DNA from: Bacteroidales bacterium
GTDB taxonomy: Bacteria > Bacteroidota > Bacteroidia > Bacteroidales > UBA12077
NCBI GenBank assembly: GCA_019038645.1
Contig: JAHOYT010000036.1
Coordinates: 1 to 64,000 of the forward strand
Direction: 5' to 3'
Length of the DNA stretch: 64,000 nt
In this document: piece after piece, positions 10,401-51,556 of the stretch
Numbering within the stretch: the stretch's first letter is position 1
Layout: the number at the start of each line of letters is the position of its first letter
Position numbers and translations under genes: made by a program
Notes under the pieces: generated by a model
Database searches by the model: none
What the model saw: the letters and a program-made list of their open reading frames with translations, nothing else
Told to the model about the DNA's origin: nothing

Positions 10401-13400
10401 AAAACAAAATACGGATGTGCTTTGTGAAAATGCCTTGGAGGTTTCTAATGATTTAACAATAGAAAATGGAGCTGATCTTAATACTGCCGGACTTAAATTA
10501 ACAATTGGAGAGGATTTTTACTTTAACGACGGAGCAACCTATACACATGGTACAAATACAACAATATTTAATGGTAGTTCAAATTCATCTATTTATGTTG
10601 GAAATACAACAACTGCATCAATATTAACATTTAATAATTTAGAGATAGAAAAAGACCAACGATATAATCCTTTATTATTCAGGTCGGTAAATGTTAGTAG
10701 TTCAGGACGAACTACAGATGATACAGATGCATTAAATACAGTTATTGATATTCAAAATGATCTTACAATTATTAGAGGTGAATTTGATACTTATAGGTTT
10801 ACAGTTAATCTGCATGGAAATATTGATATTACTGATGGTAAGCTGGATGCAAGTACAACTAATCCTGGTCGAATTAATTTAACCGGAGGTTCTGCTCTAC
10901 ATACAATAAATACAAGTTCATCTACAGCATCTTTTGGTCATATTGAACTTGATGATGCTAATGGTGCTCAACTTCAAAGTAATTCTGATTTTGCAGATTT
11001 TACCTTAACTACTGGTATAATGGATATTGGAATTTATAGCATGAGTGTTGATTCAGGTAGAATAAGCGGAAGTAGTTTTGGTAGCACAAAAATGATAAAA
11101 GCTGCAGGAAATTATTCTGATAGAGGTCTTCAATACACCATTAATCTAGATGGCGCATATACAAATGAAACTATTGCTTTTTATCCAATTGGTACAGGAA
11201 CAGATTATACGCCAGTTGAAATATTTGCAAATGGATCACCCGGAACCGTTTCAGGGACATTCAGAGTTTCTCAGGGCAGTTCTTCTCACCCGGCAGTTAA
11301 TACACCGGCAGATGTTATTCCTTATTATTGGAGATCTGAGGCAACAGGATTTAGTGGAATTGATGAAACTACAATTTCCTTACAATTTACACATCATACG
11401 GCTGGCGATTTTTCGGGAGGATTTAATGCTGCATGGATAACAGATGACGAATCTGAATGGAATGAGGGAGCAAGTACAAATACAACAAAGCCTGATATTC
11501 CCTTTAGTGGTGTTGGATTTTTAAATGCTGATTGGACTGCTGGTAAGCATTCAGCATTTAGAAAGATTTTTACGTATTATTCAAGACAAGATGGTGATTG
11601 GGATACTAAAAGCACATGGTCAATTGTAGATATTGATGGTGCTGAAGTTGCAGGAACAGGTGCAGAACCTTTCCCATTTAGTTCAACAGATAGAATTGTT
11701 GTAGCACATAATGTAACAATATCTTCTTCAACAACTAATACTGATGTTGCTGGTGTTAAAACATATGGTGCTCATCCATCAACTGGTACTCAGGCAATTC
11801 TTAATGTTGGATCAGCAACAGGCTTAACTTTTATATCAGTTTCCGGGGGAGGTCATCTGATCGACTCTACTAATACTTTGCCAAGCGCTGATTATCAGGA
11901 TTTTATTGATAATGACACTGCTATTATAGAATTTTCTGGTGGTGATTATACATTACTAACTACTTTATCAGAATATCCAACATTATTAATAACAGGAAAT
12001 GCAAACAATACTTCAAAGACTTTACCTATTCAGGATATAACAGTTAACAGGGATCTAATTATTAATAATACTAATTTTACAGGCACAACTTTAACACTTA
12101 GTAGTGGAGCAACCGGGGATATTACTATTGAAGATTCTTTAGTCATGTATAATCAAGGTAAATTAGTTTTTCCGGCTACAGGAACTGAAAGAATTGTAAC
12201 AGTTTATGATAAAATAAATTGTGACCCTGATGGATTAGAAAGTGCCAACGCTATTGAAGTTGAAGATGGTGTATCCGCATTAACTTCGCATGAACTTGTA
12301 GTTTATGGTGATATAGATATTGGAGGTTCTTCAATTACATTTTGGAGAGATGCTACAAAACGAAATGCCAATTTGATCTTCATGGGAACAGATAACTCAG
12401 ATATTGCAAATGCCACTCCTGATGCGGCATATAATATTGCTCTTAACAGATTAATAATTGAAAAATATTCAGGATCTCAGGTAAACTTTTACGAAGAACT
12501 TACCTTAAACGGCGAAACTGATGGATTAACAAAAGCTTTAGAAATAACATCAGGTAACGTGAATTTTGATAATTCAAATACTGATATTACACTATCAAGT
12601 GGAGGTAGTGATTTTTTACTTCCTTCAGGATCTGAACTTATTATAAAAAATGGTATTTTAAGAGTCTCTGGTAATAATACAGGTATTAAGCTGGACGGAA
12701 AATTACAACTAAATTATAATGGTCAGGTTTTGGTAAATGGTGGTACAAATAATTACATCGAATATACATCTTCCGGAACTTCAGAAATTTATATTAATCA
12801 AGGAACATTGAAAGTAGGTTCTCAAATTCGCCGGCAAACATATACTACAGATGGAGTACTTAAATTTACTCAAAACCATAGTAATAGTACTGTTGTAATT
12901 GGTGAAACTGATGCAATTGAAGGTGCACGTGGTATATTTGAAATATTAAATACCGGAAGCGAATTTACTCAAGTAGCTGATGCGAACATTACTATTGTGC
13001 GCCAGCAAACAAGTCCATCAATTGCTGCTTTGTATTTAAATCCCGAAACTCCAATTATTGGAGCCGGTGCTTCATTTACTTTTGGTGATGATACTAATAC
13101 ACCGATAGATCAAATCATAGGATTAAATTCAAGTGTAAATCTGAAAAACATTATTGTTAATTCAACAAATAGTCCAACAGTACAAATGCAGATACAGACT
13201 TTAACACTTGAAGAAGATTTAACCATTGAAAGTGGATCTACTTTTGATGCAAATACCTTAGCTTTAAATATTCAAGGAGATTTTACTAATTCGGGTACGT
13301 TTGAGCCAAATGAAAATACAACTACATTTAGTGGTTCATCAGATCAGAAAATTACAGGTAAAACAACTTTTTATAATTTAACCAAATCAACTTCAAATGC

Positions 13401-16400
13401 ACTTAGTTTAAGTGAGACATCAACCGATACAGTTTTTATCGAAAATGATTTTAGAATCGAGAATGGAATATTCCGTGATAGTAGTAATGCTGTTAGTGTT
13501 AAAGGTGATATGTTAAATAACGGAACACACATTTATGGAGGTACAGGTAACGGAATAGAGATGCTTGGTATTGTTGAGCAGGATATGACTGGAGATGGCA
13601 GTGGGATTTTTGGTATGTTAACTATAAGCAATGCATCAGGAGTTGGTGTTCATGTTGATATTGGTAATGAATTATTTATCGAGGATGGATTAAATTTAAA
13701 TGGAGGCGTACTTGATGTTGGTAATAATCTTCTTGATTTATCTGTTAATGCACAAATTATTGAAGGATCTACTTTTAGTAGTAGTAATATGATTCGAACA
13801 AATATCTCATTTACAGATAATGGTGTTCGCAAAACACTCCCTTCAACAGCCGATGCCGGTGGCCCATATGATTATATAATACCTATTGGATCCGGTGATA
13901 AATATACACCTGTTGAATATAAAATCACTGAAAACGATAACAGTACTGGGACAATAATTACAAAAGCTGCTGACGAAAGGCATCCAAGTATTGTTAACGA
14001 TTTTGACGACCCTGAAATAGCTGATTCAATTAATGTTTTACAATACCACTGGGTTGTTAAATCAAGCGGTATTTCAGGCTTTTCTGCCGATGTTGAAATG
14101 AAGTATTATCCCGCTGATATTTATGCAATTGGTCCTTATGATGTTACAGATTATATTACAGCGCGATTATTAAATGATGGTTCAGGAAACTGGAATAAAT
14201 ATGATGCAGATGATTTTGATGAAGCAAACAGCTTATGTCTTTTTAATTTCGACAATGTTGGTGATGAAGAGATTGAAGGTGATTATACAGCAGGAATTGA
14301 TGATGCAATTCCTGATCAGGTTCCATTTTACGAGACAAATAACTCCGGAAGCTGGACAGATGGTTCAATCTGGACGCCAAACGTTGCAGGAGGGCCTCGT
14401 GGTGCAATGGTTCGTATAAATACTGATGACACTGTATACATACCTTCTAATTTTAAATCTTCTTATACAACAACAATCAATGGAAGACTTGAAGTAGACA
14501 GTACGTTTGGGCATCGTGCTGGTGAAGTGTCTGGAACAGGTACTTTATACACTAAAAGGGCAAGTTTACCTGCAGGATATTATACAGATTTCTTTGCATC
14601 AACGGGTGGTACATTAGAGTATGGAGGCTCTGCAAATTATGATATATTAGCTGGATTTACACAGGTTAATAATTTAAAATTGAGTGGAACTGGAGAAAGA
14701 AGATTTCCTAACCAGGATGTCACTCTTTTAGGAGATATAACAATTGATGGAGATGATGCTACACTAAATGTAATAAATGACCACGATCAGAAAATTAGTA
14801 TTGGAGGAGATATAAGTTTTGTAACAGGATCGTTTGATGCAGGTGATGGTGCAAATGCTATTATAGAACTGAATGGTACATCTGCCCAATCAATAACAGG
14901 AAACTTTACAGGTACAAATAACTTCTATCATTTTACTTTAAATAATGCTAATGGAGTTACATTAAGTGGTCCAATTGATATTGATGGGGATTTAACCTTA
15001 ACTTCAGGTGTGATAACAACATCTGTCGCAAATATTTTGTCAATGACAGATGTCTTTAGTTCTGTTTCAGGGTATAGTTCTTCAAACTATGTTGATGGAC
15101 CAATGAAAAAGAACCTTTCAAATGGAAGTACATTTATTTTTCCGCTAGGTGACGCAACCAGATATGGGAAGGTCGAAATAATTAATACATTAACATCCGG
15201 ACCTCAATATTGGGAAACTGAATATTACAATGCTAATCCAGATGCATCTATGGATACCAGCTTTAGAGAAGCTGGCCTTGAAATGGTGAGTGGTAATGAA
15301 TATTGGAGGGTTAAAGGCCCTGCAAGTGGAACATCACCATTGCAAATTAGGTGGGATTCTAATAGTATGTTACCTGCAATGACAGATGACCGACCTAATA
15401 ACCTTAAAATGGTAGAATGGATACCTGATCAATGGGAAATAGTTACTCCCGCCACGGTTACAGATGGCGGTGTAAACTCCGGGTCTATAATATCTGATAA
15501 CAGCTTAGATTTAGATGATGATCATTATTTTACAATTGGTACAACAGAGTCTGCTCCACTACCTACTGCCGGATTTACAAGTTCTGATACTTCAATTTGT
15601 GCCGGGGGAACAGCATCCTTAATTGTTGAATTAACAGGAACAGCACCATGGACTATTAAAGTTGATAGTGCTGGAATTAACTGGACACATACCGCTATTG
15701 CTGCGAGTCCTTATACTATTAATACAAGTCCTGCAGATAATACAACTTATACTATAACAGAAGTGACTGATGATACACCAACAACATCCACAACAACTAT
15801 TTTTGGAAGCCCCGTTACAGTAACGGTTATCCCTGTGCCTGATAATTCGTTTACTATTACTCCTTCGGGTACTGATTCGTATTGTGCTGGTGGTACTGGT
15901 GTTGCTGTTGGACTTAATAATTCAGAAACGGGTGTAAATTACGATTTATATAGAGACGGATCTCCGGCAGGTAGTTCAGCAGCAGGTAGTACCGGATCCT
16001 CAATAAGTTTCGGAAACCAAACGGTAGCAGGTTTGTATGAAGTATATGCAACAGATGCAACAGATGCTTCCGGCACTTGTACTGTATTAATGGCAGGAAA
16101 CCTGACTATTTCAATTAATCCGCTACCTGACGCAACGCTTACTGCAAATGCAGCACTTGATTCAATTTGTGACGGGAATAATACACAAATTTCGATAGAT
16201 TTTACTGCAGGAACAGGACCTTTTGATTTTACAATTACGGATGGTACAACTCCTGAAAATTTAGTTGGTATTGCGGCTGATCCTTATACTTTTAATCCGG
16301 TAACAGCTCCGGTTTGGGTCGATGATGGTTCTCCGGATACTGATTACTATTATACTATTACAACTATTACAGATACAAATGGTTGTACCAATACAAACAT

Positions 16401-16479
16401 TGGAAATGAAAAAGTGACATTATTTAAAATTCCTGAAACCGGAGCAGGTTATCATATTCCGAATGACAGTGAAAAATAA
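7438..16479 (+). CDS. Giant secreted multi-module surface protein (LamG-like and repeated beta-rich modules)
   Basis: The 3013-residue protein begins with a signal peptide ending near NIYAQ. Residues about 45-280 resemble a LamG/concanavalin jelly-roll (LKFWLRGDSV, LFDLSGYNNHF, LDFDGAGDFL). Then follow three repeated modules starting at about residues 452, 1379 and 2297, each opening with a W-rich SGxWxxxxxW segment, continuing with long strand-turn repeats (NGDL.IE.G type), and ending with an IG.G..YTPVE segment (about 1256, 2156 and 2574). Residues about 2710-2995 hold three Ig/PKD-like repeats with ICAGG/YCAGG/ICDGN cysteines. There is no type A or type B T9SS domain; instead it ends in a short tail, PETGAGYHIPNDSEK. 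It is probably a surface or extracellular adhesin exported with its T9SS neighbours. Confidence 0.85.
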   Translation: MKKYNRIIGKLALIIILLTNILVLNIYAQTGPGGVGNNSGAGNLKFWLRGDSVSIDTGVDTLFDLSGYNNHFVQSNTTYQPAITTINGFDVLDFDGAGDFLLDDDGESYINGQSAFSLLFVIKSDNASTDKGWFITETPTGADDSLSIRYDAAGALGGQSNVIRAGSGAGGIVESSASSQSTSNQLVTFSWISNATPELYIDGTQDALSYGNLIVGSVSGSDRVILGKGGLDTGVGDGWDGIVAEVIYFNKQINSAERTVVENYLATRYNLTISNDEYTPDDAGYIYDVVGIGVESDGDHNGSVSAGFGINEDNSTLDTDGEYIFASHDNTTNDIASIKTDVEVTTNLGASGAAWNRSWYMAKSGGANIDLRIYFDFGDGIEGGGIPQNITNYRLLYRVGTSGNYSIVTTSSQGIQSGDQMYFEVSNANIANGYYTIGTIDQTNSPVEGSSTQTWYTLVSGNWKDKGEDNIWTLDASGALPNNPNDEIPDENDNVVVLSGKTVTVSESGYILKSIEVEGRLYLGSTNSHDFTDIGGNGRIYIEEDYFPAGDSTDFITAGLDEGTVVYSGSSNYSITTSITFYNMEIIMNNTTDTVTLMCDYILNGNLKVEKGTFRINDNDAGSTTPLVLDIEGDVDVYSAGIFTVGTGNAYSAVAASGYGNYHKGIHQIYVGGDFTNQGIVRFTNQPLPDYENLTTTGGVSLVFDGATNNTFTCEDTTDLYNLVIDKGTDQTYALEIYAEDTSHFAMYGQNDDTWNNTDAANPENRKALWIKAGTLRLSGELYIPSLVEGSRDFTIGENARLYLDGPNVFVSNTANESSTYTDLSHGSPNGVDNDQTDQGLYILGKLQVDNGKFLLGEAEAINFGTEAAGVIVVNGGELEANQISSAASGDFSYIQTGGIVRLTSEYIADADKALLHLNNGDMVFTMSDGEIIIEGVAPTDPGTETNGILIASDEGNYSVTGGTLTINYTGGTNVEINSTANFYDLTIKQNTDVLCENALEVSNDLTIENGADLNTAGLKLTIGEDFYFNDGATYTHGTNTTIFNGSSNSSIYVGNTTTASILTFNNLEIEKDQRYNPLLFRSVNVSSSGRTTDDTDALNTVIDIQNDLTIIRGEFDTYRFTVNLHGNIDITDGKLDASTTNPGRINLTGGSALHTINTSSSTASFGHIELDDANGAQLQSNSDFADFTLTTGIMDIGIYSMSVDSGRISGSSFGSTKMIKAAGNYSDRGLQYTINLDGAYTNETIAFYPIGTGTDYTPVEIFANGSPGTVSGTFRVSQGSSSHPAVNTPADVIPYYWRSEATGFSGIDETTISLQFTHHTAGDFSGGFNAAWITDDESEWNEGASTNTTKPDIPFSGVGFLNADWTAGKHSAFRKIFTYYSRQDGDWDTKSTWSIVDIDGAEVAGTGAEPFPFSSTDRIVVAHNVTISSSTTNTDVAGVKTYGAHPSTGTQAILNVGSATGLTFISVSGGGHLIDSTNTLPSADYQDFIDNDTAIIEFSGGDYTLLTTLSEYPTLLITGNANNTSKTLPIQDITVNRDLIINNTNFTGTTLTLSSGATGDITIEDSLVMYNQGKLVFPATGTERIVTVYDKINCDPDGLESANAIEVEDGVSALTSHELVVYGDIDIGGSSITFWRDATKRNANLIFMGTDNSDIANATPDAAYNIALNRLIIEKYSGSQVNFYEELTLNGETDGLTKALEITSGNVNFDNSNTDITLSSGGSDFLLPSGSELIIKNGILRVSGNNTGIKLDGKLQLNYNGQVLVNGGTNNYIEYTSSGTSEIYINQGTLKVGSQIRRQTYTTDGVLKFTQNHSNSTVVIGETDAIEGARGIFEILNTGSEFTQVADANITIVRQQTSPSIAALYLNPETPIIGAGASFTFGDDTNTPIDQIIGLNSSVNLKNIIVNSTNSPTVQMQIQTLTLEEDLTIESGSTFDANTLALNIQGDFTNSGTFEPNENTTTFSGSSDQKITGKTTFYNLTKSTSNALSLSETSTDTVFIENDFRIENGIFRDSSNAVSVKGDMLNNGTHIYGGTGNGIEMLGIVEQDMTGDGSGIFGMLTISNASGVGVHVDIGNELFIEDGLNLNGGVLDVGNNLLDLSVNAQIIEGSTFSSSNMIRTNISFTDNGVRKTLPSTADAGGPYDYIIPIGSGDKYTPVEYKITENDNSTGTIITKAADERHPSIVNDFDDPEIADSINVLQYHWVVKSSGISGFSADVEMKYYPADIYAIGPYDVTDYITARLLNDGSGNWNKYDADDFDEANSLCLFNFDNVGDEEIEGDYTAGIDDAIPDQVPFYETNNSGSWTDGSIWTPNVAGGPRGAMVRINTDDTVYIPSNFKSSYTTTINGRLEVDSTFGHRAGEVSGTGTLYTKRASLPAGYYTDFFASTGGTLEYGGSANYDILAGFTQVNNLKLSGTGERRFPNQDVTLLGDITIDGDDATLNVINDHDQKISIGGDISFVTGSFDAGDGANAIIELNGTSAQSITGNFTGTNNFYHFTLNNANGVTLSGPIDIDGDLTLTSGVITTSVANILSMTDVFSSVSGYSSSNYVDGPMKKNLSNGSTFIFPLGDATRYGKVEIINTLTSGPQYWETEYYNANPDASMDTSFREAGLEMVSGNEYWRVKGPASGTSPLQIRWDSNSMLPAMTDDRPNNLKMVEWIPDQWEIVTPATVTDGGVNSGSIISDNSLDLDDDHYFTIGTTESAPLPTAGFTSSDTSICAGGTASLIVELTGTAPWTIKVDSAGINWTHTAIAASPYTINTSPADNTTYTITEVTDDTPTTSTTTIFGSPVTVTVIPVPDNSFTITPSGTDSYCAGGTGVAVGLNNSETGVNYDLYRDGSPAGSSAAGSTGSSISFGNQTVAGLYEVYATDATDASGTCTVLMAGNLTISINPLPDATLTANAALDSICDGNNTQISIDFTAGTGPFDFTITDGTTPENLVGIAADPYTFNPVTAPVWVDDGSPDTDYYYTITTITDTNGCTNTNIGNEKVTLFKIPETGAGYHIPNDSEK

Positions 16480-22555: not shown

Positions 22556-23899
22556 TTAAAAAGTTAAAGTAAAAGTTGCTCCTTTTTCTATTTCGGAAGT
22601 TGCTGTAATCGATCCTGCGTGCAAACGCATAATTTGTTTTGAAAGGCTTAATCCAATTCCTGAACCTTTAGGCTTGGTTGTGAAAAATGGAATAAATATT
22701 TTATCAAGTACTTCTTTTAATATTCCTTGTCCGTTATCAGAAACCTGAATTGTAACTCTGCCTCGTTTATTATAAAAGGATTTTATTTGTATAATCGGTT
22801 TTTCACTGTTTTCGAGCGCATGAATCGCATTTTTTATCAGATTAATCAATACTTGTTCTATAAGTTTAGTATCAGCATTAAATTCAATTGATTCAGGTTC
22901 TAATGATACCTGATAATCAACATTGCTTGCCTTAATTTCTTCTTTTAATAACTGCTGTATATCACTAAAAACATCTTTAACTTTGGCAACTCTAAAGTTT
23001 GGTTTTGGTATTTTTGTCAGATTCCGGTACGTATTTACGAAATGCAATAAACCGTTACTTCTATTATTAATAGTTTTTATGGCTGTATGAATTTCTTCCA
23101 CAGAGTCCTTGTCTGGCAGAGTCTCATTATTCTCATTATCTTTAAACATTAAATCTAAAGTAGAAGTAATCGAAGAAATAGGTGTTATTGAATTCATAAT
23201 CTCATGTGTGAGCACACGGATTAATTTTTGCCAGCTTTCTGTTTCCTGATCCTCAAGAACACTTTGAATATTTTTAATTGTAACAAGCTTAATGCTCTTA
23301 TTAAGTATTTTAAATTCAGTTCCTGATATTGCTAGTTGTAAAATGTCATCATCTTCCTGAATTTTAACCAGACAACTTTTTCCGGGTTCAAAACGGATCA
23401 GAGTCTCAACTAATTCAGGGCTAATTACTTTCAGGTCATTTATATTGTTTACAGAATTAATCTGAAAAAGTTTTTTAAAAGCATGATTCACCATATCAAC
23501 GGTACCGTTGTTTTGATAAGTTATAATACTTACATCGATATTGCGCACCAGATTTTGAAAGTACTGGTATTGTTCTTCTTTCTCAGACCTAACTTTCTGA
23601 AAATCCTGAATAACATCATTAAACGCCTTATTAAGTTCATCAAAAGATGATCCCATTCCTTCAATTTTAAACGAACGTGTAAATTCCGAAAATCGAATGG
23701 ACTCAAGGAAGCTGGCCAGATCGCGGTTGGTTTTATCGAGGTATTTAAAAATAAGATAAATCTGGAATACAATAATTAACCCAATCAGGAAAGGGGTAAT
23801 AAGATATTCTAAGGTTAGTGTGTAGAAAAAAAGAAATATTGTTGCAGTTAACAACAATATTCTGAATATTGCGACAAGTCTAAAATTTCTAAAGATCAT
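22556..23899 (-). CDS. NtrB/NtrY-like sensor histidine kinase
   Basis: The 447-residue protein has two N-terminal membrane helices (about residues 9-50), a linker, a PAS-like region (about 110-215), and a kinase core with the H-box RVLTHEIMNSITPISS (H232), N-box NLIKNAIHAL, DNGQGI and GSGIGLSLSKQIMRLHAGS. It overlaps the end of the upstream response-regulator gene by 11 bases, so the pair is translated together. It should phosphorylate the sigma-54 activator next to it. The stimulus is unknown; the short periplasmic segment suggests membrane or cytoplasmic sensing. Confidence 0.93.
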   Translation of the reverse strand: MIFRNFRLVAIFRILLLTATIFLFFYTLTLEYLITPFLIGLIIVFQIYLIFKYLDKTNRDLASFLESIRFSEFTRSFKIEGMGSSFDELNKAFNDVIQDFQKVRSEKEEQYQYFQNLVRNIDVSIITYQNNGTVDMVNHAFKKLFQINSVNNINDLKVISPELVETLIRFEPGKSCLVKIQEDDDILQLAISGTEFKILNKSIKLVTIKNIQSVLEDQETESWQKLIRVLTHEIMNSITPISSITSTLDLMFKDNENNETLPDKDSVEEIHTAIKTINNRSNGLLHFVNTYRNLTKIPKPNFRVAKVKDVFSDIQQLLKEEIKASNVDYQVSLEPESIEFNADTKLIEQVLINLIKNAIHALENSEKPIIQIKSFYNKRGRVTIQVSDNGQGILKEVLDKIFIPFFTTKPKGSGIGLSLSKQIMRLHAGSITATSEIEKGATFTLTF

Positions 23900-25265
23900 A
23901 CTTTTCCATTCTTCGGTATAAAGATGTTCTTGTTAGTCCTAATACGGTTGCAGCCTGAGTAACATTTCCCTGGTTTTGTTTTAAGATCTTAACAATAATA
24001 TTTTTTTCCACTTCTTCCAGATTGTAAGTATCAATTGCAATTTCAGCAGCTTTTTCACTTCTTGTTGAGAGTGAAAAGTCATCGGGTTGAATAACATCAG
24101 AATCACTCATTATAATTGCTCTTTCAAGTGCGTGTTGTAATTCTCTAACATTACCCGGCCATTGATACTGAGTTAGTTTTTTTAGTGCATCTGCATTTAT
24201 TCCTTTAATTTTTTTACGATATTTTTTTGAATAAATAGATAAAAAATGCTCTGCCAGCAATGGTATATCTCCTGTTCTTTCTCTTAGCGGTGGTAAGTAA
24301 ATTTCAACCGTGTTTACCCTGTAAAGTAAATCCTGCCTGAATGATTCGTCCTGAATCATTTGATGTATATCATTGTTAGTGGCGCATATTAATCTTACAT
24401 CAATTTTATTAGCCTTATTCGCGCCAACACGCGTAATTTCCCGTCGTTCAAGCACAGTTAATAATTTAACCTGCATTGGAAGTGATAAGTTTCCTATTTC
24501 ATCCAAAAACAGGGTTCCCCCGGAAGCAATCTCAAAACGTCCTGGTTTATCTTTTTTAGCATCTGTAAATGCACCTTTCATATGTCCGAAAAGTTCACTT
24601 TCAAATAAGGTCTCTGTAATTGACCCAAGATCAACACTAATAAAAACTTCGTCTTTTCGCAATGAATCTCTGTGTAGCGCTCTTGCTACTAGCTCTTTAC
24701 CTGTTCCGTTTTCTCCCAGAATAAGTATGTTAGCATCTGTTTTTGCAACTTTTTTAATAGTCGAAAATACTTGTTGCATCTCCTGGGAATTTCCAATAAA
24801 TTCATGAAACGGTTGATCCTGTATTGCGCTTATTTCTTTTTGTTTCTTTCTTAGATCAGTTGCTTCGCTTTTGGATCTGCTTAATTTTATAGCAGATGAA
24901 ATAGTAGCCAGAATCTTTTCGTTTTGCCAGGGTTTTAAAACAAAGTCCGTAGCACCTGATTTTATTGCCTTAACAGCTTTTTCTGCATCGCCGTACGCTG
25001 TAATGAAAACAACCACTGCGTCAGGATCAATCTCTAATATTTTGTTTAACCAATGAAACCCTTCCTGACCGCTTATAGCATCTTTTGTAAAATTCATATC
25101 GAGCAAAATTACATCGTAATTATCGCTGTGTAAAAGTTCAGGAATTTTTTCCGGACTTGTTTCTGCATGTATTACTTCAACATGATTTTTTAAAAGAAGT
25201 TTTAATGCGAACAATATATCTTCATTATCATCTATAGCCAGTATCTTTCCAACCTTTTCGTTCAT
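23889..25265 (-). CDS. NtrC-family sigma-54-dependent response regulator
   Basis: The 458-residue protein has a receiver domain with phospho-acceptor D56 (VILLDMNF), a sigma-54 AAA+ domain with Walker A GENGTGKE, a GAFTDA loop near residue 230 (variant of GAFTGA), Walker B GGTLFLDEIG, and a C-terminal Fis-type helix-turn-helix (VTQAATVLGLTRTSLYRRMEKY). It is the first gene of a two-gene operon with its kinase and is divergent from the efflux adaptor gene. The shared intergenic region holds two tandem dyads and a sigma-54-like promoter facing the adaptor; these are the natural candidate binding sites of this protein. Confidence 0.95.
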   Translation of the reverse strand: MNEKVGKILAIDDNEDILFALKLLLKNHVEVIHAETSPEKIPELLHSDNYDVILLDMNFTKDAISGQEGFHWLNKILEIDPDAVVVFITAYGDAEKAVKAIKSGATDFVLKPWQNEKILATISSAIKLSRSKSEATDLRKKQKEISAIQDQPFHEFIGNSQEMQQVFSTIKKVAKTDANILILGENGTGKELVARALHRDSLRKDEVFISVDLGSITETLFESELFGHMKGAFTDAKKDKPGRFEIASGGTLFLDEIGNLSLPMQVKLLTVLERREITRVGANKANKIDVRLICATNNDIHQMIQDESFRQDLLYRVNTVEIYLPPLRERTGDIPLLAEHFLSIYSKKYRKKIKGINADALKKLTQYQWPGNVRELQHALERAIIMSDSDVIQPDDFSLSTRSEKAAEIAIDTYNLEEVEKNIIVKILKQNQGNVTQAATVLGLTRTSLYRRMEKYDL

Positions 25266-25342: not shown

Positions 25343-25383
25343 ACTGTACGATATCGTACTCTCCCTGTTTCGTTATCGAACAG
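25343..25383 (+). promoter_or_regulatory. Tandem activator dyads upstream of the efflux adaptor gene
   Basis: Two related dyads: GTACG-ATAT-CGTAC (25346-25359, perfect) and TTTCG-TTAT-CGAAC (25368-25381), 22 bases apart. Extended 19-mers start at 25343 and 25365. The second dyad ends 66 bases before the TGG of a sigma-54-like promoter. The same arrangement occurs at 27616-27655 and 46771-46811. They are probably enhancer sites for the adjacent NtrC-like regulator. Confidence 0.75.
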
Positions 25384-25447
25384 TTTCGTCACAGAATTGA
25401 TTAATGAAGTGATTGTAAATAGCAGAATATCAGCGTAAAACGGGTTT

Positions 25448-25463
25448 TGGCATAATTAATGAA
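25448..25463 (+). promoter_or_regulatory. Sigma-54-like promoter for the efflux adaptor/ATPase operon
   Basis: TGGCATAATTAATGAA has the -24 TGGCA box and GG-N10-GA spacing; the usual -12 GC is GA. It lies 44 bases before the ATG at 25508 and downstream of the tandem dyads. Confidence 0.65.
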
Positions 25464-25507: not shown

Positions 25508-26761
25508 ATGGATAGAGCAATAGAAAAAAAGTATAAATGGCTAAACAAAAAAACTATTTGGCTTACTGTTGGGGGGATTCTTATTCTCCTTGTTGCGTAT
25601 AATATAATATTTGGCGATAAAAGTTCAAAATTAAATGTTGAAAAGGAAAAAATTACAATTGAATCTATAATTGAAAATGAATTTAAGGATTATATTGCTG
25701 TTATTGGTACTGTTGAACCTATTACAACTGTTTATCTTGATGCAATTGAAGGAGGTAGAGTAGAAGAGATTATAATTGATGAAGGTAATATGGTAAACAA
25801 AGGCGATGTAATTATGCGTATGAGTAACACCAATCTTTTACTGGATATTTCAAACAACGAATCTAATGTATCCCGTTCAATTAATGAGTTTGAGAATACG
25901 AAAATTAATCTTGAAATACAGACGATTACAAGAAAACAAACACTTATTAATACTGAAATGAATCTTAAAAGAGAGAAAAGACAGTATGAATATAATAAGC
26001 AATTGTTTGAAAATAATCATATTTCTAAAGAAGAATTTAATCAATCGCGTGAGCAATATGATGCTTCATTAGAGCAATATGAATTACTTATTGCTGCATT
26101 AAAAAGTGATTCTTTGTACAGAGTGAATACGCTTTCTTCTATGGAAGCAAATGTTGAAAGAATGAAACAAAACCTGATAGTTGTTCAGGGGCGACTGGAT
26201 AATCTTAATGTAAAAGCTCCGGTAAATGGAGAATTAGCTAGTTTGAATCAGGAAATTGGTCAGGTTATTAATTATGGAACACGAATCGGAACAGTTAATG
26301 TTCTTGATGATTATAAACAAAGAATAGAAATTGATGAGCATTATATTGCAAGAGTCAGAAAAGGACTTCCAGGTAGTTTTGAATTTGCAGGATCCACTTT
26401 TAAATTAAAAATTGATAAGGTCTATCCTGAAGTAAATAATGGTCGTTTTGCAGTCGACATGACATTTACTTCTGATAAACCAGATCAAATAAGAATTGGC
26501 CAGACATTCAGGATTAAACTGGAACTGGGAGAATCAAAACAGGCAGTTTTAATACCACGTGGTGGATTCTATCAGAGTACTGGAGGTCAGTGGGTGTATG
26601 TAGTTGCCGAGTCAGGCGATCTGGCTATAAAACGTAATATCTCAATCGGACGTCAGAATCCTAAGTATTATGAAATCCTTGAAGGATTAAATCCGGGAGA
26701 ACAGGTTATAGTTTCAAGCTATGATAACTTTAATGATGTTGATCAGTTAATTTTAAAATAA
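25508..26761 (+). CDS. HlyD/MacA-type periplasmic adaptor (membrane fusion protein)
   Basis: The 417-residue protein has an N-terminal membrane anchor (about residues 18-38), a lipoyl/barrel-sandwich half-motif (VYLDAIEGGRVEEIIIDEGNMVNKGDVIMRM), a long coiled-coil hairpin (about 115-235), the second lipoyl half (NLNVKAPVNGELASLNQEIGQVI) and a C-terminal beta-barrel/membrane-proximal domain. It should link an inner-membrane transporter to a TolC-type outer-membrane channel. The next gene is an ABC ATPase of the MacB/LolD group. The promoter region contains sigma-54 and dyad signals shared with a distant TolC-like gene (45297-46643). No permease gene is nearby. Confidence 0.93.
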   Translation: MDRAIEKKYKWLNKKTIWLTVGGILILLVAYNIIFGDKSSKLNVEKEKITIESIIENEFKDYIAVIGTVEPITTVYLDAIEGGRVEEIIIDEGNMVNKGDVIMRMSNTNLLLDISNNESNVSRSINEFENTKINLEIQTITRKQTLINTEMNLKREKRQYEYNKQLFENNHISKEEFNQSREQYDASLEQYELLIAALKSDSLYRVNTLSSMEANVERMKQNLIVVQGRLDNLNVKAPVNGELASLNQEIGQVINYGTRIGTVNVLDDYKQRIEIDEHYIARVRKGLPGSFEFAGSTFKLKIDKVYPEVNNGRFAVDMTFTSDKPDQIRIGQTFRIKLELGESKQAVLIPRGGFYQSTGGQWVYVVAESGDLAIKRNISIGRQNPKYYEILEGLNPGEQVIVSSYDNFNDVDQLILK

Positions 26762-26797: not shown

Positions 26798-27481
26798 ATG
26801 ATTAAAACTAATGAATTAGTAAAAGTTTTCAGAACAGATGAAGTAGAAACAACTGCTCTGAACAAAGTAAATTTGAATATTGAAAGTGGAGAGTTTGTAG
26901 CAATTATGGGCCCTTCAGGTTGTGGAAAATCAACTTTGCTGAATATTATTGGATTGCTTGACAATCCAACATCAGGCGAATTACATTTTACCGATCAGGA
27001 AATTTCAAAATATTCAGAAAGACAAAGAACTAACCTTAGAAAAGGTAATATTGGGTTTGTTTTTCAAAGCTTTAACTTAATAGACGAACTTACAGTGTAT
27101 GAAAATGTAGAGCTTCCATTGCTATATTTAAATATGCCGTCTTCGGAAAGAAAGAAAAAGGTTGAGGCAGTGCTTGACAGAATGAAAATGTCACATCGTA
27201 AAAAGCACTTCCCACAACAATTATCGGGTGGTCAGCAACAACGTGTGGCTATTTCAAGAGCTGTTGTTACAAATCCAAAATTAATTTTAGCCGATGAGCC
27301 AACAGGTAACTTAGACTCTGCAAATGGTGAAGAGGTTATGAATTTGTTATCTGAGTTAAATAACGAAGGAACAACTATTGTAATGGTAACACACTCACCA
27401 TCGGATGCTGAAAAATCTCACAGAATTGTTCAGTTATTTGACGGACATATTGTTACTGAGAATATTAAGAAAGTTCTTTAA
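26798..27481 (+). CDS. MacB/LolD-type ABC transporter ATP-binding protein
   Basis: The 227-residue ATPase has Walker A GPSGCGKSTLLN (from about residue 38), Q-loop FVFQSFNL, signature LSGGQQQRVAISRAV, Walker B LILADEPTGNLD and the switch histidine VTHSPSDAE. Length and sequence fit the LolD/MacB/FtsE group, which pairs with FtsX-like permeases. It follows the adaptor gene by 36 bases. A terminator ends the operon 110 bases later and no FtsX/MacB-type permease is present in the window, which is unusual for such clusters. Confidence 0.95.
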   Translation: MIKTNELVKVFRTDEVETTALNKVNLNIESGEFVAIMGPSGCGKSTLLNIIGLLDNPTSGELHFTDQEISKYSERQRTNLRKGNIGFVFQSFNLIDELTVYENVELPLLYLNMPSSERKKKVEAVLDRMKMSHRKKHFPQQLSGGQQQRVAISRAVVTNPKLILADEPTGNLDSANGEEVMNLLSELNNEGTTIVMVTHSPSDAEKSHRIVQLFDGHIVTENIKKVL

Positions 27482-27618: not shown

Positions 27619-27655
27619 GTTCGTAATCGGACGCTTTATGAACGTACACGTACAA
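27616..27655 (+). promoter_or_regulatory. Tandem activator dyads upstream of the 98-aa gene
   Basis: Dyads GTTCG-TAAT-CGGAC (27619-27632) and GAACG-TACA-CGTAC (27640-27653) have centres 21 bases apart. The second ends 67 bases before the TGG at 27721. Spacing matches the copies at 25343-25383 and 46771-46811. The second dyad is the weakest of the six sites in its 4-base centre. Confidence 0.6.
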
Positions 27656-27720: not shown

Positions 27721-27736
27721 TGGCATATATCTTGAA
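27721..27736 (+). promoter_or_regulatory. Sigma-54-like promoter upstream of the 98-aa gene
   Basis: TGGCATATATCTTGAA has TGGCA at -24 and GG-N10-GA spacing. It is 67 bases downstream of a dyad pair and faces the gene at 27872. Confidence 0.55.
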
Positions 27737-27871: not shown

Positions 27872-28168
27872 ATGTTAAAAGATTTATGTATTCCTGTTCC
27901 CGGATTTGCTGAAAATGAAATTGCTGAACTGCATCTTAAAGTAGGCAATAAAAAAATATGTTATGATTTTAGGGTTGAGTCATTTCCCTGGGATGTTGAT
28001 GATGAATTAAATGATGAATCCGACCATATAACTTTATCCCTGGCAAGAATAAGCAGACTTAGAAAAGCAATTGCAGATTATGATAAAAGCTGGGAACTAA
28101 TTCAAATTTTCACACCTGCTGATCATTCAAAATACATTCAGGTGTTATATCGTAAAAAAACAAGTTAA
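27872..28168 (+). CDS. Small conserved-looking cytoplasmic protein of unknown function
   Basis: The 98-residue protein has no signal peptide or membrane helix. It is rich in charged residues (FPWDVDDELNDESDHITLSL, then a basic RISRLRKAIADYDKSW helix and a C-terminal strand IQVLYRKK). I do not recognise a family. AGGA lies 10 bases before the ATG, a better ribosome site than most here. It is followed after 18 bases by a secreted NTF2-like protein, and the pair sits under a composite sigma-54-like promoter shared with the efflux genes, so it may belong to the same response. Confidence 0.72.
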   Translation: MLKDLCIPVPGFAENEIAELHLKVGNKKICYDFRVESFPWDVDDELNDESDHITLSLARISRLRKAIADYDKSWELIQIFTPADHSKYIQVLYRKKTS

Positions 28169-28186: not shown

Positions 28187-28636
28187 ATGAAGAAAATAAT
28201 TGTTCTGGTAGTATTTGCATGTATTACTACAATGTCAATATTTGCTCAGGAAACTGAGAAAGAACAAAATGCTATAAAAAGCATAATTCAAACTGCTTAC
28301 GTTGATGGATTACAAAACAAGGGTGAATTAAAGGATATAGAAAACGGATTTCATCCGGGCTTTAATCTTTTAGGCATTAACCATAATATGCTTACAAAAT
28401 TTCCAATTTATAGCTGGATTGAGTCTTTTGAAAAAAGAAAAAGCGAAAACCCGGAACCTCCAAAAGATGATCAGAAAATTACCTGCGATTATATTACGAT
28501 TGATATTACAGGCAACGCTGCAATGGCAAAAATCCAACTAAAAAGAAATAATGAATTACTTTTTACAGATTATCTGCAACTGTATAAGTTTGAAGAAGGA
28601 TGGAAGATCGTAAGTAAAATATATTACCGACATTAG
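28187..28636 (+). CDS. Secreted NTF2-like (putative lumazine-binding family) protein
   Basis: The 149-residue protein has a signal peptide (MKKIIVLVVFACITTMSIFA) and a single NTF2-like cone fold typical of the putative lumazine-binding/DUF4440 group: an N-terminal helix AIKSIIQTAYVDGL, a central GFHPGFNLLGI, and C-terminal strands (AMAKIQLKRNNELLFTDYLQLYKFEEGWKIVSKIYY). Family members are mostly uncharacterised small-molecule-binding proteins. It is the second gene of the unit at 27872 and is closed by a terminator. Confidence 0.82.
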   Translation: MKKIIVLVVFACITTMSIFAQETEKEQNAIKSIIQTAYVDGLQNKGELKDIENGFHPGFNLLGINHNMLTKFPIYSWIESFEKRKSENPEPPKDDQKITCDYITIDITGNAAMAKIQLKRNNELLFTDYLQLYKFEEGWKIVSKIYYRH

Positions 28637-30278: not shown

Positions 30279-33200
30279 CTATTTTGGAATAAAAATCTCA
30301 ACCCTTGTACCACGTGGTAATTTTTGCTCATTATATAAATCAATAGTATTTGTTCTATAACCTTTTCGTTGCATTGTCTGGTTTAAGAGTGCCAGCCTCT
30401 CTGCAATAATAAATGTTCCTTTTGATTTCTGAGATTTATTATTTTTATTGAATTCTCTGGATTTTTCCCTACCCATTCCGTTATCTTCAATAATACATTT
30501 TAGAATTTTATCATTAGAAAGATTAAATTCTATTTTAATTTTTCCTCCCTTGTTAATATTAGCAAAACCATGTTTAATCGAGTTTTCAATATATGGTTGA
30601 ATAATCATTGACGGAATAAGAACTTTTAGGTTGTCAGTATCTTTGGGTAGAACAATTTCAGTTTCGAATTTTTTATCAAATCGCATTTGTTCCAGACTCA
30701 GGTAATATTTTAAGTACTCAAGCTCTTCCTCCAGTGTAATTCGTTTTTTTGATACATTATCAAGTGTTAACCTAATAAGTTTTGCAAAATCGGATAAATA
30801 GCCTAGTGCAGTATCTATATCATCGTCAAGCATGTAATTTTGAATCGAATTAATTGCATTAAAAATAAAATGCGGATTCATTTGTGCACGTAAAGCTTTC
30901 ATTTCAAATTCAGTAATTCGTTCTGCTATTTCTGTACGCTGACGTTCTTTCCTTTTAACTGACTTTATTCTTATTTTCATTAATAACCATATTGAAAAAA
31001 GAAAGGTTAAGCTTAACGAAACAATAAACCACCATTTTAACCAAATTGGTGAGGATATTTCGAACGCTATTGATAATTCCTGATTACTTTCAAAATAATA
31101 TTTTTCAAAAGCTTTAATTCTTAACCTGTAATTTCCAGGCTCTAAGTTCTGAAAAACAATTTTTTTGTCTTTGGTTTCATTGGACCAGTCATTATTATAT
31201 CCTTCAAGTTTGTAGCTAAAACCTATGTTTTCATGATCCAGATACCTTATTATATCAAAATGGAAAGTCACAGAATTTTTATTGTAAGGCAATTTAAAGG
31301 CAGAAACCGGTATTTTAGTCCAGAAATCAACAATATTTGATTTTTCAAATTCTAAGGTAGAACCGTTTACTTCAACCGATTTAATATAAAAATCAAAATA
31401 TTTATTATTTGATTCGTAAAGCTTCTTCAGATCAATATTAATTAGATTTTTATTAGACCCAATCCATAGATTATTATTGTGCCCCAAAACTGAAACAACA
31501 CCCGCATAATCCGTAAAACCATTCGATTTATCAATAGTACGGATTGAATAAATGTTTCTGTTGTACAAATCATTAAGGTTAATAATATTTAAGCCTGCAT
31601 TGGTTCCGGCAATAAGTATATTTTCATCTGTACAGCTTAACCATTTAATACTTGATCCTGATAAACCATTAAAAGCGTTTATTATAAATTTATTTTTAAG
31701 CGTATCTTCTGAAAACTGGTTTATATATATATTCCCATTGTTACCGCCTTTAATAATATTATTTAAGTTGTCAAAACAAATATCATTGAAGGAATTTGCA
31801 GTAGCATCTTTCTGGTCGTATGCTGAAAAATATCCGTCTTTGTTATATGTATATACTCCCCGATTGAGGCTTAAGAACCATAATTTGTTATCATTAATTT
31901 TAATTTTACTTATGTTTCCTGTGTTCTTATTATCATAAAAATTACAGACTGAATAATTTGAATTCCCTTCAATATCATAATATACAAGTAGTTCTTCCCA
32001 GCATACAGCGTGCAACTTATTTTCGGAATCAAATGCAAAATCTGAAAAATAGATTCCTGCCAGATCATAATATTCTACTTTATCGTTATTTCTAATTTTG
32101 AATATTCCAACATTGCTTCCAATCCAGATATTACCTTTTTGATCCTGACAAATACTATTTAAATCATTAAGTTCCTTATTTATAAAAACATCATATTTTA
32201 AAGGTTTATATTGGCTTTTAGGAGGCAGTATTTCGGATTTGTTTCCATTAGATTTTTGATAAGGATTAGGGAAAGGATATTTTCCTGATATAATTAGGTT
32301 ACGGTATTTTTCATACGAACCGGATTTATCTTTAAGGTAACTGTATTTGATTTTAATACTGTTTTTTAAATATGCATTAAAACTTGTCTGGAATGCTTTA
32401 AAATGAATCACTTTATAACTTCCGTCAGCATATTTCTTAATAACATTTTCCTTTGTAACAATCCATAAAGTACCTGATTCATCATAGAATAAATCATTTA
32501 TATTAAGCTCATTTAAGTTAAAATCACTCGCCTGGTAGTATGAATAGTTAGTCTGTATATATAAAAACAAACCATCTTCTTTTGTCCCAATCCATAATAT
32601 ATTCTCATTGTCATCAAATTCAAGGGAAAAGATGTTTTCAGAATTAATACCTAAAAATTTGTTGAACTTTTCAGTTTTATTGTTACCAAATTTGAAAAGT
32701 CCGCCATTTTTAAAATAATTATTATTCCAGGCTGCTATCCAAACATTATTATCGGAATCTTCAGCATATTCTTTTACAAATCCTATATTGGGATTCGTTC
32801 CTGATTTATTATTATTAATTATTTTAAGTTTGGTTCTGTTATAATTAATTAACGTATCATTTAACCGACTAATAAACACAGAGTTAACAGTATTATAATT
32901 TAAAGGATGGTTTGACGGAATTCGTATTAAATTTCTTAAATCGGGAACATATTTATACAAACCATGCCCGTTTGTAAATACGTATATGAAGTTTTCCTGT
33001 TCTAAAAATCCTGTAATACTGAGCCTTTTATCAACATTGTTTACTTTCTCCTGAAAAGATGTAAACTTCCCGTTTTCGTATATGCTCAACCCATTTTCAG
33101 TACCAATAAGAAGAATATTTAATTTTTCAGAATTATATAGTTTATTTACATCATTTGAAACAATTCCGGATTCTGAATTAAATGATACAATTTCTTCACC

Positions 33201-33515
33201 ATTTAATTTTGAGATACCTCCATTGTGACATCCAATCCATATATTTCCTTCATTATCTTCAACAATTGACCGGATTTCGTCGCCCCCTAATCCATCCTGT
33301 GATGAATAAATAAGGAAATTTTCGCCATCGAATCTTGCCAGTCCGGCATTGGTTCCAATCCACAAAAATCCTCTGCTGTCTTTAAATAATTCATGAATAC
33401 AGTTGTCCGGAAGACCATTGTTTATGGTGTAATTTCTTGTAAAGTACTGCTGGCTCAATGAAGAATGAACATTTATAACTGAAAATATCAATATTAATAA
33501 CAGAGCTTTTTTCAT
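30279..33515 (-). CDS. Two-component propeller sensor with LytS-type histidine kinase
   Basis: The 1078-residue protein has a signal peptide, about fourteen two-component-propeller blades (residues about 25-720, with recurring WIGTNAGL, IWIGCHNGGI, LWIGTKEDGL), a Y_Y_Y domain (about 740-810, YNNDWSNE...LEPGNYRLRIKA), one membrane helix (about 830-850), and a LytS/YpdA-type kinase: QMNPHFIFNAINSIQ with H882, then NSIKHG and EDNGMGR. This matches the extracellular-propeller sensors of Bacteroidota, here without the AraC domain seen in hybrid versions. It follows its LytTR regulator by 20 bases on the same strand. The sensed ligand is unknown. Confidence 0.95.
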   Translation of the reverse strand: MKKALLLILIFSVINVHSSLSQQYFTRNYTINNGLPDNCIHELFKDSRGFLWIGTNAGLARFDGENFLIYSSQDGLGGDEIRSIVEDNEGNIWIGCHNGGISKLNGEEIVSFNSESGIVSNDVNKLYNSEKLNILLIGTENGLSIYENGKFTSFQEKVNNVDKRLSITGFLEQENFIYVFTNGHGLYKYVPDLRNLIRIPSNHPLNYNTVNSVFISRLNDTLINYNRTKLKIINNNKSGTNPNIGFVKEYAEDSDNNVWIAAWNNNYFKNGGLFKFGNNKTEKFNKFLGINSENIFSLEFDDNENILWIGTKEDGLFLYIQTNYSYYQASDFNLNELNINDLFYDESGTLWIVTKENVIKKYADGSYKVIHFKAFQTSFNAYLKNSIKIKYSYLKDKSGSYEKYRNLIISGKYPFPNPYQKSNGNKSEILPPKSQYKPLKYDVFINKELNDLNSICQDQKGNIWIGSNVGIFKIRNNDKVEYYDLAGIYFSDFAFDSENKLHAVCWEELLVYYDIEGNSNYSVCNFYDNKNTGNISKIKINDNKLWFLSLNRGVYTYNKDGYFSAYDQKDATANSFNDICFDNLNNIIKGGNNGNIYINQFSEDTLKNKFIINAFNGLSGSSIKWLSCTDENILIAGTNAGLNIINLNDLYNRNIYSIRTIDKSNGFTDYAGVVSVLGHNNNLWIGSNKNLINIDLKKLYESNNKYFDFYIKSVEVNGSTLEFEKSNIVDFWTKIPVSAFKLPYNKNSVTFHFDIIRYLDHENIGFSYKLEGYNNDWSNETKDKKIVFQNLEPGNYRLRIKAFEKYYFESNQELSIAFEISSPIWLKWWFIVSLSLTFLFSIWLLMKIRIKSVKRKERQRTEIAERITEFEMKALRAQMNPHFIFNAINSIQNYMLDDDIDTALGYLSDFAKLIRLTLDNVSKKRITLEEELEYLKYYLSLEQMRFDKKFETEIVLPKDTDNLKVLIPSMIIQPYIENSIKHGFANINKGGKIKIEFNLSNDKILKCIIEDNGMGREKSREFNKNNKSQKSKGTFIIAERLALLNQTMQRKGYRTNTIDLYNEQKLPRGTRVEIFIPK

Positions 33516-33535
33516 TCTTCAGTTTGTTACAGATT

Positions 33536-34288
33536 TTAACGTTTTGTAAGAGCTTTTAAAAACTCGTCAATTCTTCGTGTTGCAACATCCAGCTCAATAC
33601 CATTTTCCAGAATGATTCTGTAACCATCGGTTTTGCTATATGATTTGATGTAGTTCATATTTACAAGATGCGATTTATGTATTCTGAAAAATAATTCATC
33701 GGGTAATAACTCTTCAATACTTTTTAATGTTCTGGCAACTAAGATTGCCTCGTTTCTGGTGGTGAAAATTTTACAATAATTTTCTTCGGCCTGACAGTAA
33801 ACAATATTGTTTACTTTCTCCATCTGGAATCCATCTAAAGTAGGTAAAGCTATTTTATTAAAGTTAGCTGATTCACTAGTCATGTTGTTAAGAAATGCTT
33901 CGATCTGATCAGTATTTGAAATCCTGTTTTCTTTCTTTTCAATACGTACCAGCACATCTCTTAAATCAATATAATTAATTGGTTTTAAAAGATAATCCAA
34001 TGCAGCAAATTTAATAGCGTCAATTGCATATTGTTTATATGCTGTAGTAAAAATTACTTCAAAGTCATAAATATCAAAATAATCGAAAAGTTTAAAGCCA
34101 TTTTCTTCAGGCATTTCAATGTCAAGAAAAACAATATCAGGACGGTATTTATTAATAGCAAAAACTCCTTCCTTAACAGAGTCAGCTAATTGTAAAATTT
34201 TGATTTTATTATTAAAATACCTTTCAATGATTTTCGACAGAGCTTCTCTGGCATTTTTTTCATCGTCAATTATTATACAACTTTTCAT
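33536..34288 (-). CDS. LytTR-family response regulator
   Basis: The 250-residue protein has a CheY-like receiver with D56 (DIVFLDIEMPEENG), conserved TTAY and LLKPI, followed by a LytTR DNA-binding domain (about 145-245: IVYCQAEENYCKIFTT, FFRIHKSHLVNMNYI). It should accept phosphate from the propeller kinase encoded next to it and control target promoters. Target sites are not evident in the window. Confidence 0.96.
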   Translation of the reverse strand: MKSCIIIDDEKNAREALSKIIERYFNNKIKILQLADSVKEGVFAINKYRPDIVFLDIEMPEENGFKLFDYFDIYDFEVIFTTAYKQYAIDAIKFAALDYLLKPINYIDLRDVLVRIEKKENRISNTDQIEAFLNNMTSESANFNKIALPTLDGFQMEKVNNIVYCQAEENYCKIFTTRNEAILVARTLKSIEELLPDELFFRIHKSHLVNMNYIKSYSKTDGYRIILENGIELDVATRRIDEFLKALTKR

Positions 34289-45296: not shown

Positions 45297-46643
45297 TTAT
45301 AGTGTAATTTGCTCTCCTCTATAAAATTCTAATATTTTTGTTCTGAAAATATATTCATATTTTGCTTGTGATAAATCGGACTTTGTCTGATTTAAATTAT
45401 TTTTTGCCATATTATACTCTAAAACGTCGACTAAACCAACCTGGTATTTTTGTTCAGTATATCTGAATGCTTCTTCCATAGATTTAACAGCTTCCGTATT
45501 CGCAATATATCTTTCCATTGCAGCAATCGCCTGTGTTCTTGCCAGTTGAATACTTTTATAAAGGTTTTGTTTTTGTAAATCAAGATTTAACTTTGAATCA
45601 GAAAGGCTTATTTTGGCATGACTGATAGCAGTTCCAGTTTGCCAGTTGTTAAAAATAGGTACCCGTAATGCAACATATAATACCTGAGAAGCATTATCAG
45701 TTATCTGGTCCATATATGGATAATTTGAGGTTGGATCAGTTATATTTGTTGCTAATTCATTGTATCTTGATTGATATTGATATCCAAAAAACACACTAGG
45801 ACTTATCCTTCCATAAGAAATGGCAAGATTTTTTTCTGAACTTTTTAACATTAGTTCAGCACTTTTTATTTCAGGTAAAAAGTTAACCGCTTCGGAAAAT
45901 ACAGTGTTTACTTCTGAAATTTCATCTGATAGTGTAATATCCGGGATTTCAGGAAACATAATTTTAAAATTTTCAGTTTCTGCCAGATTTAAAAGTTGAG
46001 TTAAGTCCAGATAAGAAATTTTTAAATTATTATTGGCATCTGTTAAAGAGGCCTTTTCCATAGCTGCCTGAGATTCGATTTGTAATAAATCGCCTTTGGC
46101 AGCATTACCAATTTCCACTAATTTTTTAGTTTTTTCAATTTGCTCCAGTGTTACATCCAGTTGATGTTGTGCATTATCCCTTAATTCTTTATTAAGAAGA
46201 ATCTGAAGATAAGCGGTAGAAACATTTAACGTAATGTCGTTTTTTACTTTATCTACAGTTTGTAACTGAGATAATAGATCATATTTATTCTTTTTTATAG
46301 TATTAAAATTTTGTAAACCATTAAAAAGTGTTATTTCAGTTGAAACATTAACACTTCCTCCCTGGAAACTCTGATTCTCGTATGTATACGTTTCTGTATT
46401 CAATGTTTTACCAGAATTCAGGTAATGGTTTCCGTTTGCATTTGCATTTGGAAGTAACTCCATTAATGATTGAAAATGTGTTTTACTAGCAGTTTCAGCT
46501 GATAGTTCCTGCCTTTTTACTGTAATATTATTTTCAATTGCATAATTAATACATTCTTCCAGTGTCCATACTTTTTGAGCATTAGAAACAGAAAAGAAAC
46601 TTGTTGATGCAATTAATATTAATAATATTTTGATTGATCTCAT
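45297..46643 (-). CDS. TolC-family outer-membrane efflux protein
   Basis: From the ATG at 46643 the protein begins with a signal peptide, MRSIKILLILIASTSFFSVSNA, then QKVWTLEECINYAIENNITVK, the standard TolC/OEP opening. Two long coiled-coil repeats follow, with KKLVEIGNAAKGDLLQIESQAA and RYTEQKYQVGLVDVLEYNMAKNNL at equivalent places. It should form the outer-membrane channel of a tripartite pump. The upstream region has the same dyads and sigma-54-like promoter as the efflux adaptor operon at 25508, with a leader of similar length, which also favours this start over 46673. Confidence 0.93.
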   Translation of the reverse strand: MRSIKILLILIASTSFFSVSNAQKVWTLEECINYAIENNITVKRQELSAETASKTHFQSLMELLPNANANGNHYLNSGKTLNTETYTYENQSFQGGSVNVSTEITLFNGLQNFNTIKKNKYDLLSQLQTVDKVKNDITLNVSTAYLQILLNKELRDNAQHQLDVTLEQIEKTKKLVEIGNAAKGDLLQIESQAAMEKASLTDANNNLKISYLDLTQLLNLAETENFKIMFPEIPDITLSDEISEVNTVFSEAVNFLPEIKSAELMLKSSEKNLAISYGRISPSVFFGYQYQSRYNELATNITDPTSNYPYMDQITDNASQVLYVALRVPIFNNWQTGTAISHAKISLSDSKLNLDLQKQNLYKSIQLARTQAIAAMERYIANTEAVKSMEEAFRYTEQKYQVGLVDVLEYNMAKNNLNQTKSDLSQAKYEYIFRTKILEFYRGEQITL

Positions 46644-46689
46644 CTTTGTAAACTTTATTTTTATATTCAACATAATTCGATTTCAATTT

Positions 46690-46705
46690 ATCATATATTG
46701 TGCCA
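46690..46705 (-). promoter_or_regulatory. Sigma-54-like promoter of the TolC-like gene
   Basis: Read on the minus strand: TGGCACAATATATGAT, a full TGGCAC -24 box with GG-N10-GA spacing. It lies 46 bases before the ATG at 46643. Confidence 0.65.
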
Positions 46706-51505: not shown

Positions 51506-51556
51506 AACTGTCTATAAGATACTTAAGGTGTAATTTAATACCAATTTCAATTGTTT

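Follow-up and report, generated by a model that had tools for sequence, protein, structure and literature searches.

The window, the whole 64,000-nucleotide stretch of Bacteroidales DNA analysed here, carries three dispersed promoters that share one composite signature because they belong to one conserved gene set. Sequence comparisons across relatives indicate that the sigma-54 activator encoded beside the first of these promoters almost certainly switches this gene set on. The genes very probably form a single sigma-54 regulon built around an efflux machine and driven by that adjacent activator.

The activator (23889-25265, minus strand) is of the NtrC type. Its translation and Pfam matches show a receiver, an AAA+ domain with a GAFTDA loop and a Fis-type helix-turn-helix, and Response_reg, Sigma54_activat and HTH_8 all score above the Pfam cut-off within this one protein. 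The contact loop reads GAFTDA rather than GAFTGA in the window activator and in the two orthologs inspected, and is a variant of the motif. A G[AS]FTDA loop also occurs in 13 of the 15 own-genome paralogs examined, alongside -12 boxes that are mostly TGA. All 80 orthologs share the recognition helix TRTSLYRR, which none of the own-genome paralogs examined has. The genome also encodes rpoN (Sigma54_DBD match, E-value: 9.7e-54). The activator gene is accompanied by a sensor histidine kinase gene (22556-23899, minus strand; 447 aa, Pfam HATPase_c), an ortholog of which adjoins the activator in 79/80 loci. By sequence inspection, the kinase lacks a periplasmic sensor and has two N-terminal hydrophobic helices joined by a loop of about five residues; this predicted topology is that of the intramembrane-sensing type. 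Kinases of this type often watch the cell envelope.

The genes behind the three promoters are as follows. The first promoter precedes a 417-aa periplasmic adaptor of the HlyD/RND_mfp type (25508-26761, plus strand), with a single match in its own genome at E <= 1e-60, and a 227-aa ABC ATPase of the DarD/LolD/MacB type (26798-27481, plus strand). The second precedes a conserved 98-aa protein without a Pfam family (27872-28168, plus strand) and a 149-aa protein with a signal-like N-terminus and a Lumazine_bd_2 domain (28187-28636, plus strand). The predicted fold of the 98-aa protein is of modest quality (pLDDT 77.6) and gave no PDB match at E <= 0.001. The third precedes a 458-aa TolC-family outer-membrane channel (45297-46673, minus strand).

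All three composites named in the preliminary description were found in the window at its positions, each consisting of two dyads 21-22 bp apart and, 66-67 bp further on, a TGGCAY-N7-TGA element. At the adaptor promoter (plus strand), dyad 1 (25346-25359; GTACGATATCGTAC, GTACG-ATAT-CGTAC) has no mismatches to GTWCG-N4-CGWAC, while dyad 2 (25368-25381; TTTCG-TTAT-CGAAC) has one and lies 22 bp from dyad 1; the -24/-12 element is at 25448-25462 (TGGCATAATTAATGA). The promoter of the 98-aa/149-aa pair (plus strand) has one mismatch in each dyad (27619-27632 and 27640-27653, 21 bp apart) and its -24/-12 element at 27721-27735 (TGGCATATATCTTGA). On the minus strand, the tolC promoter has dyad 1 at 46795-46808 (GTTCA-TTAT-CGTAC, one mismatch), dyad 2 at 46773-46786 (TTTCA-TTAT-CGTTC, three mismatches, 22 bp from dyad 1) and the -24/-12 element at 46691-46705 (TGGCACAATATATGA). 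The dyad centre spacings first reported for the adaptor, 98-aa/149-aa and tolC promoters (22, 21 and 22 bp), the gaps from the second dyad to TGGCAY (66, 67 and 67 bp) and the invariant letters of four aligned 19-mers were all recovered. The described likeness to GTWCG-N4-CGWAC holds for five dyads, with zero or one mismatch each, but one tolC dyad is off by three letters. This deviation is kept in its orthologs and is therefore a promoter-specific variant.

The promoters are conserved in relatives. Among 59 genomes, 34 have an adaptor ortholog, and the composite is found at the adaptor gene in 18/18 genus members that have this gene and in 4/4 genomes of a second genus, always with 65-68 bp to TGGCAY. 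It is present at tolC in 16 genus members (simple scan), at the 98-aa gene in 10/16 genus orthologs and at the gene of a GRAM-domain protein, described below, in 19/19 genus orthologs (scan or profile). Each promoter keeps its own dyad variant; that of tolC is GTTCATTATCGTAC / TTTCATAATCGTTC in species after species. In an alignment of 63 orthologous promoters the dyad and -24/-12 letters are invariant and the spacer is otherwise unconserved. The TGG of the -24 box is invariant in 63/63 aligned promoters, and TGGCAY is kept in 70 of 71. The TG of the -12 box is likewise invariant and at the right distance; its third base is A in 51, T in 14, C in 5 and G in 1 (n = 71), so that the box is mostly TGA (51/71) as opposed to the canonical TGC. 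The dyads stand 66 or 67 bp from TGGCAY in 65 of the 71 promoters and 65-68 bp over all 71. All three promoters, with their spacing, are thus kept in the genus and the family, the conservation that the preliminary description had proposed to look for.

A sequence profile built from the 63 orthologous promoters was run on the 3.39-Mb genome from which the window comes (E-values from a shortened calibration). It gave seven matches with E < 1e-6 (67.7, 60.3, 52.1, 51.9, 42.3, 37.1 and 33.6 bits), each upstream of a gene; four of the seven are in the training set and the other three are not. The units matched are the adaptor/ATPase operon, tolC, the GRAM protein, the 98-aa/149-aa pair, a 135-aa secreted protein (contig C64), an FtsX-type permease (contig C62) and an ABC ATPase operon (contig C4). 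The 102-aa GRAM-domain protein (L187:6702-7010, equivalent to contig C48:15701-16009, minus strand) is the fourth regulon member, with a composite conserved in genus and family. Orthologs of the 135-aa gene, fast-evolving but recognisable, lie behind a composite in several members of the genus. The C4 operon encodes an ABC ATPase, two smaller permeases and an adaptor-like protein, and ATPases of this type have a composite in several relatives. The match at C62 lies in a paralogous module; it may reflect dyad similarity rather than membership. Weaker profile matches, with more FtsX permeases among them, are regulon candidates only. The three-unit regulon first described is therefore right in that all three units carry the composite, but too small: the GRAM protein, the small secreted protein and the ABC ATPase operon are new. 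Several small secreted proteins behind composites (L366 on contig C64, L343-L349 and L356) are fast-evolving, contain repeated E-x-WM motifs and have no Pfam family above cut-off.

Gene order in relatives also joins these genes. In 26 loci outside the genus (for example L183), the adaptor, ATPase, 98-aa and TolC genes form one operon behind a single composite, beside the activator-kinase pair, and the 98-aa gene sits between the ATPase and TolC genes in the operons of many relatives. In the genus of the window, TolC stands apart by about 20 kb and a separate promoter often precedes the 98-aa gene; every piece has a composite. The one-operon relatives provide independent grounds for the earlier proposal that the adaptor, ATPase, TolC and 98-aa genes belong to one response. 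One operon has been split into separately promoted units that kept the same control element, a clear example of regulation that persists when an operon breaks up. In Marinifilum, the adaptor and ATPase genes have an FtsX permease gene between them. An own-genome ortholog of this permease was sought and no candidate was accepted, as about 20 paralogs (27-37% identity) gave no clear best match.

The composite and the regulator are closely linked. Eighty regulator orthologs were collected from named genome records, including Marinifilum, Labilibaculum and Ancylomarina isolates, and a composite of 38 to 71 bits lies within the locus in 78 of the 80. About 62 of these 78 loci are outside the main training family of the profile. 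Of the two loci lacking a composite, one (L267) is at a contig edge and the other (L333, Perlabentimonas) has the activator and kinase with no composite or pump genes nearby. In a set of 59 genomes, all 32 with a regulator ortholog also have a strong profile match (E <= 1e-5), and such a match is absent from 23 of the 27 without one (Fisher p = 1.2e-12, shared ancestry ignored). For the 34 genomes outside the family, the composite/regulator split is 11/0/0/23 (Fisher p = 3.5e-9, shared ancestry ignored). The 78 loci, this co-occurrence and the invariant recognition helix support the earlier suggestion that the adjacent NtrC-like regulator would be the natural activator of these promoters.

The chief alternative is that another paralogous sigma-54 activator, or several with overlapping specificity, binds the composites and that the adjacent activator is only one user. 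This is unlikely, although it has some points in its favour. The genome has 18 strong Sigma54_activat matches, 17 besides the window activator, and composites can occur where the adjacent activator is missing. G013, a genome of the same genus with an estimated completeness of 100%, lacks orthologs of the activator, kinase, adaptor and 98-aa genes together with the left flank, and nonetheless retains strong composites at both tolC and the GRAM gene. The same discordance is seen in three incomplete genomes (G002, G010 and G024). The right-flank contig of G013 begins within a leucine-rich-repeat-like gene, about 2 kb away from the expected junction. Either loss of the cluster or an assembly gap may account for the absence in G013. 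On its contig C7 (L181:1-2270), the end at which one would look for the regulator cluster is occupied by this leucine-rich-repeat-like gene.

The promoter layout is also shared with paralogs. Most of the other activators are encoded beside a kinase gene, with the gene of an FtsX-type permease (about 790 aa) transcribed divergently. At least a dozen modules of activator, intramembrane-type kinase and FtsX permease were seen (C2:97 kb, C5, C16, C19, C26, C29, C30, C32, C43, C50, C55 and C62). The top-scoring pair of similar dyads was determined for 13 module intergenic regions; in 10 of them, the two dyads are spaced by 21-23 bp and a TGG-type box lies at a distance of 59-74 bp (binomial p = 7.7e-5 relative to shuffles, with a simple scoring of our own making). 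The two-dyad/-24 layout is generic to the paralogous activators, and therefore only the dyad letters point to the window regulator. These letters differ among modules (TGTCCA...TGGACA at C2:97 kb, TGTAAA...TTTACA at C26) and score lower against the profile. The closest paralog, at C62, has an activator 55% identical to that of the window and somewhat similar dyads (37 bits), and cross-talk with it is possible. Against use of the composites by other activators, the out-of-family genomes have a strong profile match only together with a regulator ortholog, and the recognition helix of the window activator is both unique and invariant. Control by the adjacent activator is the better reading.

The modules also raise a further, rather unlikely idea. 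The window adaptor, ATPase, TolC and 98-aa protein could be the hub of a hub-and-spoke arrangement, a shared chassis for at least a dozen orphan FtsX-type permeases elsewhere in the genome, most with their own kinase, activator and same-layout promoter with different dyad letters. Within a few kilobases of the paralogous modules, relatives of the window adaptor and TolC are absent, as are close relatives of the ATPase, and the 98-aa protein has no relative near the modules either. Other adaptors, ATPases and TolC proteins may exist elsewhere in the genome; the C4 ABC operon, for one, has its own adaptor and ATPase. If true, it would mean insulated parallel sensing-and-export lines in one genome with a common exit duct.

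It is very improbable that the dyads are repressor operators, or autoregulatory sites of the activator gene, with an incidental TGGCAY downstream. The adaptor dyads are near-symmetric and only some 80 bp separate them from the start of the activator gene, so that they could serve both sides. However, 71 promoters preserve a distance of 65-68 bp to TGG-A/TG while their spacer letters vary, and the tolC, GRAM and 98-aa copies have no neighbouring activator gene. Three loci (L290, L303 and L307) have the adaptor or ATPase operon downstream of the kinase; here the composite stands at that operon rather than next to the activator gene. Because it stays with the pump operon in these loci, the composite is a target-operon promoter.

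The composite is rare. A scan of the window that allowed up to 4 mismatches over both dyads and demanded an exact TGGCAY with a gap of 60-72 bp returned exactly three composites, those of the preliminary description; the same scan of 150 dinucleotide-preserving shuffles of the window returned none. In the whole 3.39-Mb genome, a 22-bp dyad pair with up to 2 mismatches occurs in three places. Two are sites already described, and the third, on contig C48, has TGGCAC 66 bp downstream and lies upstream of the 102-aa GRAM gene. A reversed control pattern of the dyad pair had 3 matches in the whole genome at up to 3 mismatches. Two dyad pairs with three mismatches (L005 and L006) were dropped, as they had no placed -24 box. 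Single dyads (up to 1 mismatch) are not enriched genome-wide (114, versus 228 for the reversed control) and, as they are not commoner than the control, the specificity lies in the composite and not in the dyad. Rather than being common at random intergenic positions, the pattern is confined in its strong form to the seven profile matches, all placed as promoters. A plasmid search with the promoter region gave no match. That the three arose by chance, or by recent duplication of a single intergenic segment, can be dismissed: single consensus-like dyads are common, but the shuffles yield no composite, the spacers from dyads to -24 box are unrelated among units, and the genus-wide conservation of unit-specific dyad variants refutes it.

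The proposed model for the regulon is as follows. On a signal from the cell envelope, presumably envelope stress, the intramembrane-type kinase (22556-23899) would phosphorylate the NtrC-type activator (23889-25265). Activator dimers would then bind the two dyads, which lie on one face of the helix at a distance of two turns, and the bound activator would assemble its AAA+ ring. By DNA looping over about 67 bp, it would open the sigma-54 polymerase predicted to be held at TGGCAY-N7-TGA. The output would be a tripartite ABC exporter (adaptor, ATPase and TolC), together with additional ABC genes and small proteins that are secreted or belong to the envelope.

This arrangement resembles NtrBC, ZraSR and AtoSC in having a receiver/AAA+/Fis-HTH activator with a cognate kinase, paired upstream dyads and a -24/-12 promoter, with activation predicted from about 60-110 bp upstream. 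It differs from them in its targets, a dispersed tripartite ABC exporter, in its GTWCG-N4-CGWAC dyads and in its -12 box, mostly TGA and not TGC. Of the NCBIfam activator models listed, none reaches its curated cut-off with the window activator. A 2025 in-silico survey based on -24/-12 matrices found sigma-54 promoters enriched at FtsX-like/COG0577 ABC permeases in Bacteroidia (PMC12316311). As far as the available part of that survey goes, it agrees with the present system in predicted sigma-54 control, ABC class and bacterial class, and that part does not name the window adaptor or TolC genes, the dyads, the activator or the regulon. Nothing closer was found in the literature on sigma-54, kinase and FtsX systems in Bacteroidota, of which coverage was incomplete.

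The exporter itself is similar to the darobactin exporter DarC/DarD and to MacAB-TolC. DarC and DarD are the models that come closest to the adaptor and ATPase, and the outer channel is of the TolC family; unlike these systems, the window operon has no permease. The curated DarC and DarD cut-offs are not reached (adaptor 186 of 450 bits, ATPase 278 of 375 bits). As both proteins are far below these darobactin-export cut-offs, no substrate should be assumed. The Bce-type modules of Firmicutes, as outlined in PMC10314905 and PMC7038271, likewise pair a kinase lacking a large periplasmic domain with FtsX-type ABC permease genes. The present system differs from those accounts in being Gram-negative, in having a sigma-54 activator as its output and in its dispersed genes. 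The resemblance is confined to kinase topology and gene neighbourhood, and a sensing role of the permease here is only an analogy.

For an export response spread across Bacteroidales/Marinilabiliales, the analysis names a binding site, a regulator and a set of genes that can be tested. The literature searched contains little on sigma-54 enhancer sites in this group. Marinifilum, Labilibaculum and Ancylomarina include cultured strains that carry the system. The fixed layout and varying dyad letters among modules could help to read the DNA-recognition code of Fis-type activators.

Elsewhere in the window, one open reading frame of 3013 aa spans 7438-16479. Other signalling genes include a Reg_prop/Y_Y_Y histidine kinase adjoining a LytTR response regulator (30279-34288) and two neighbouring TPR-repeat histidine kinases of 977 and 775 aa (48572-53884).
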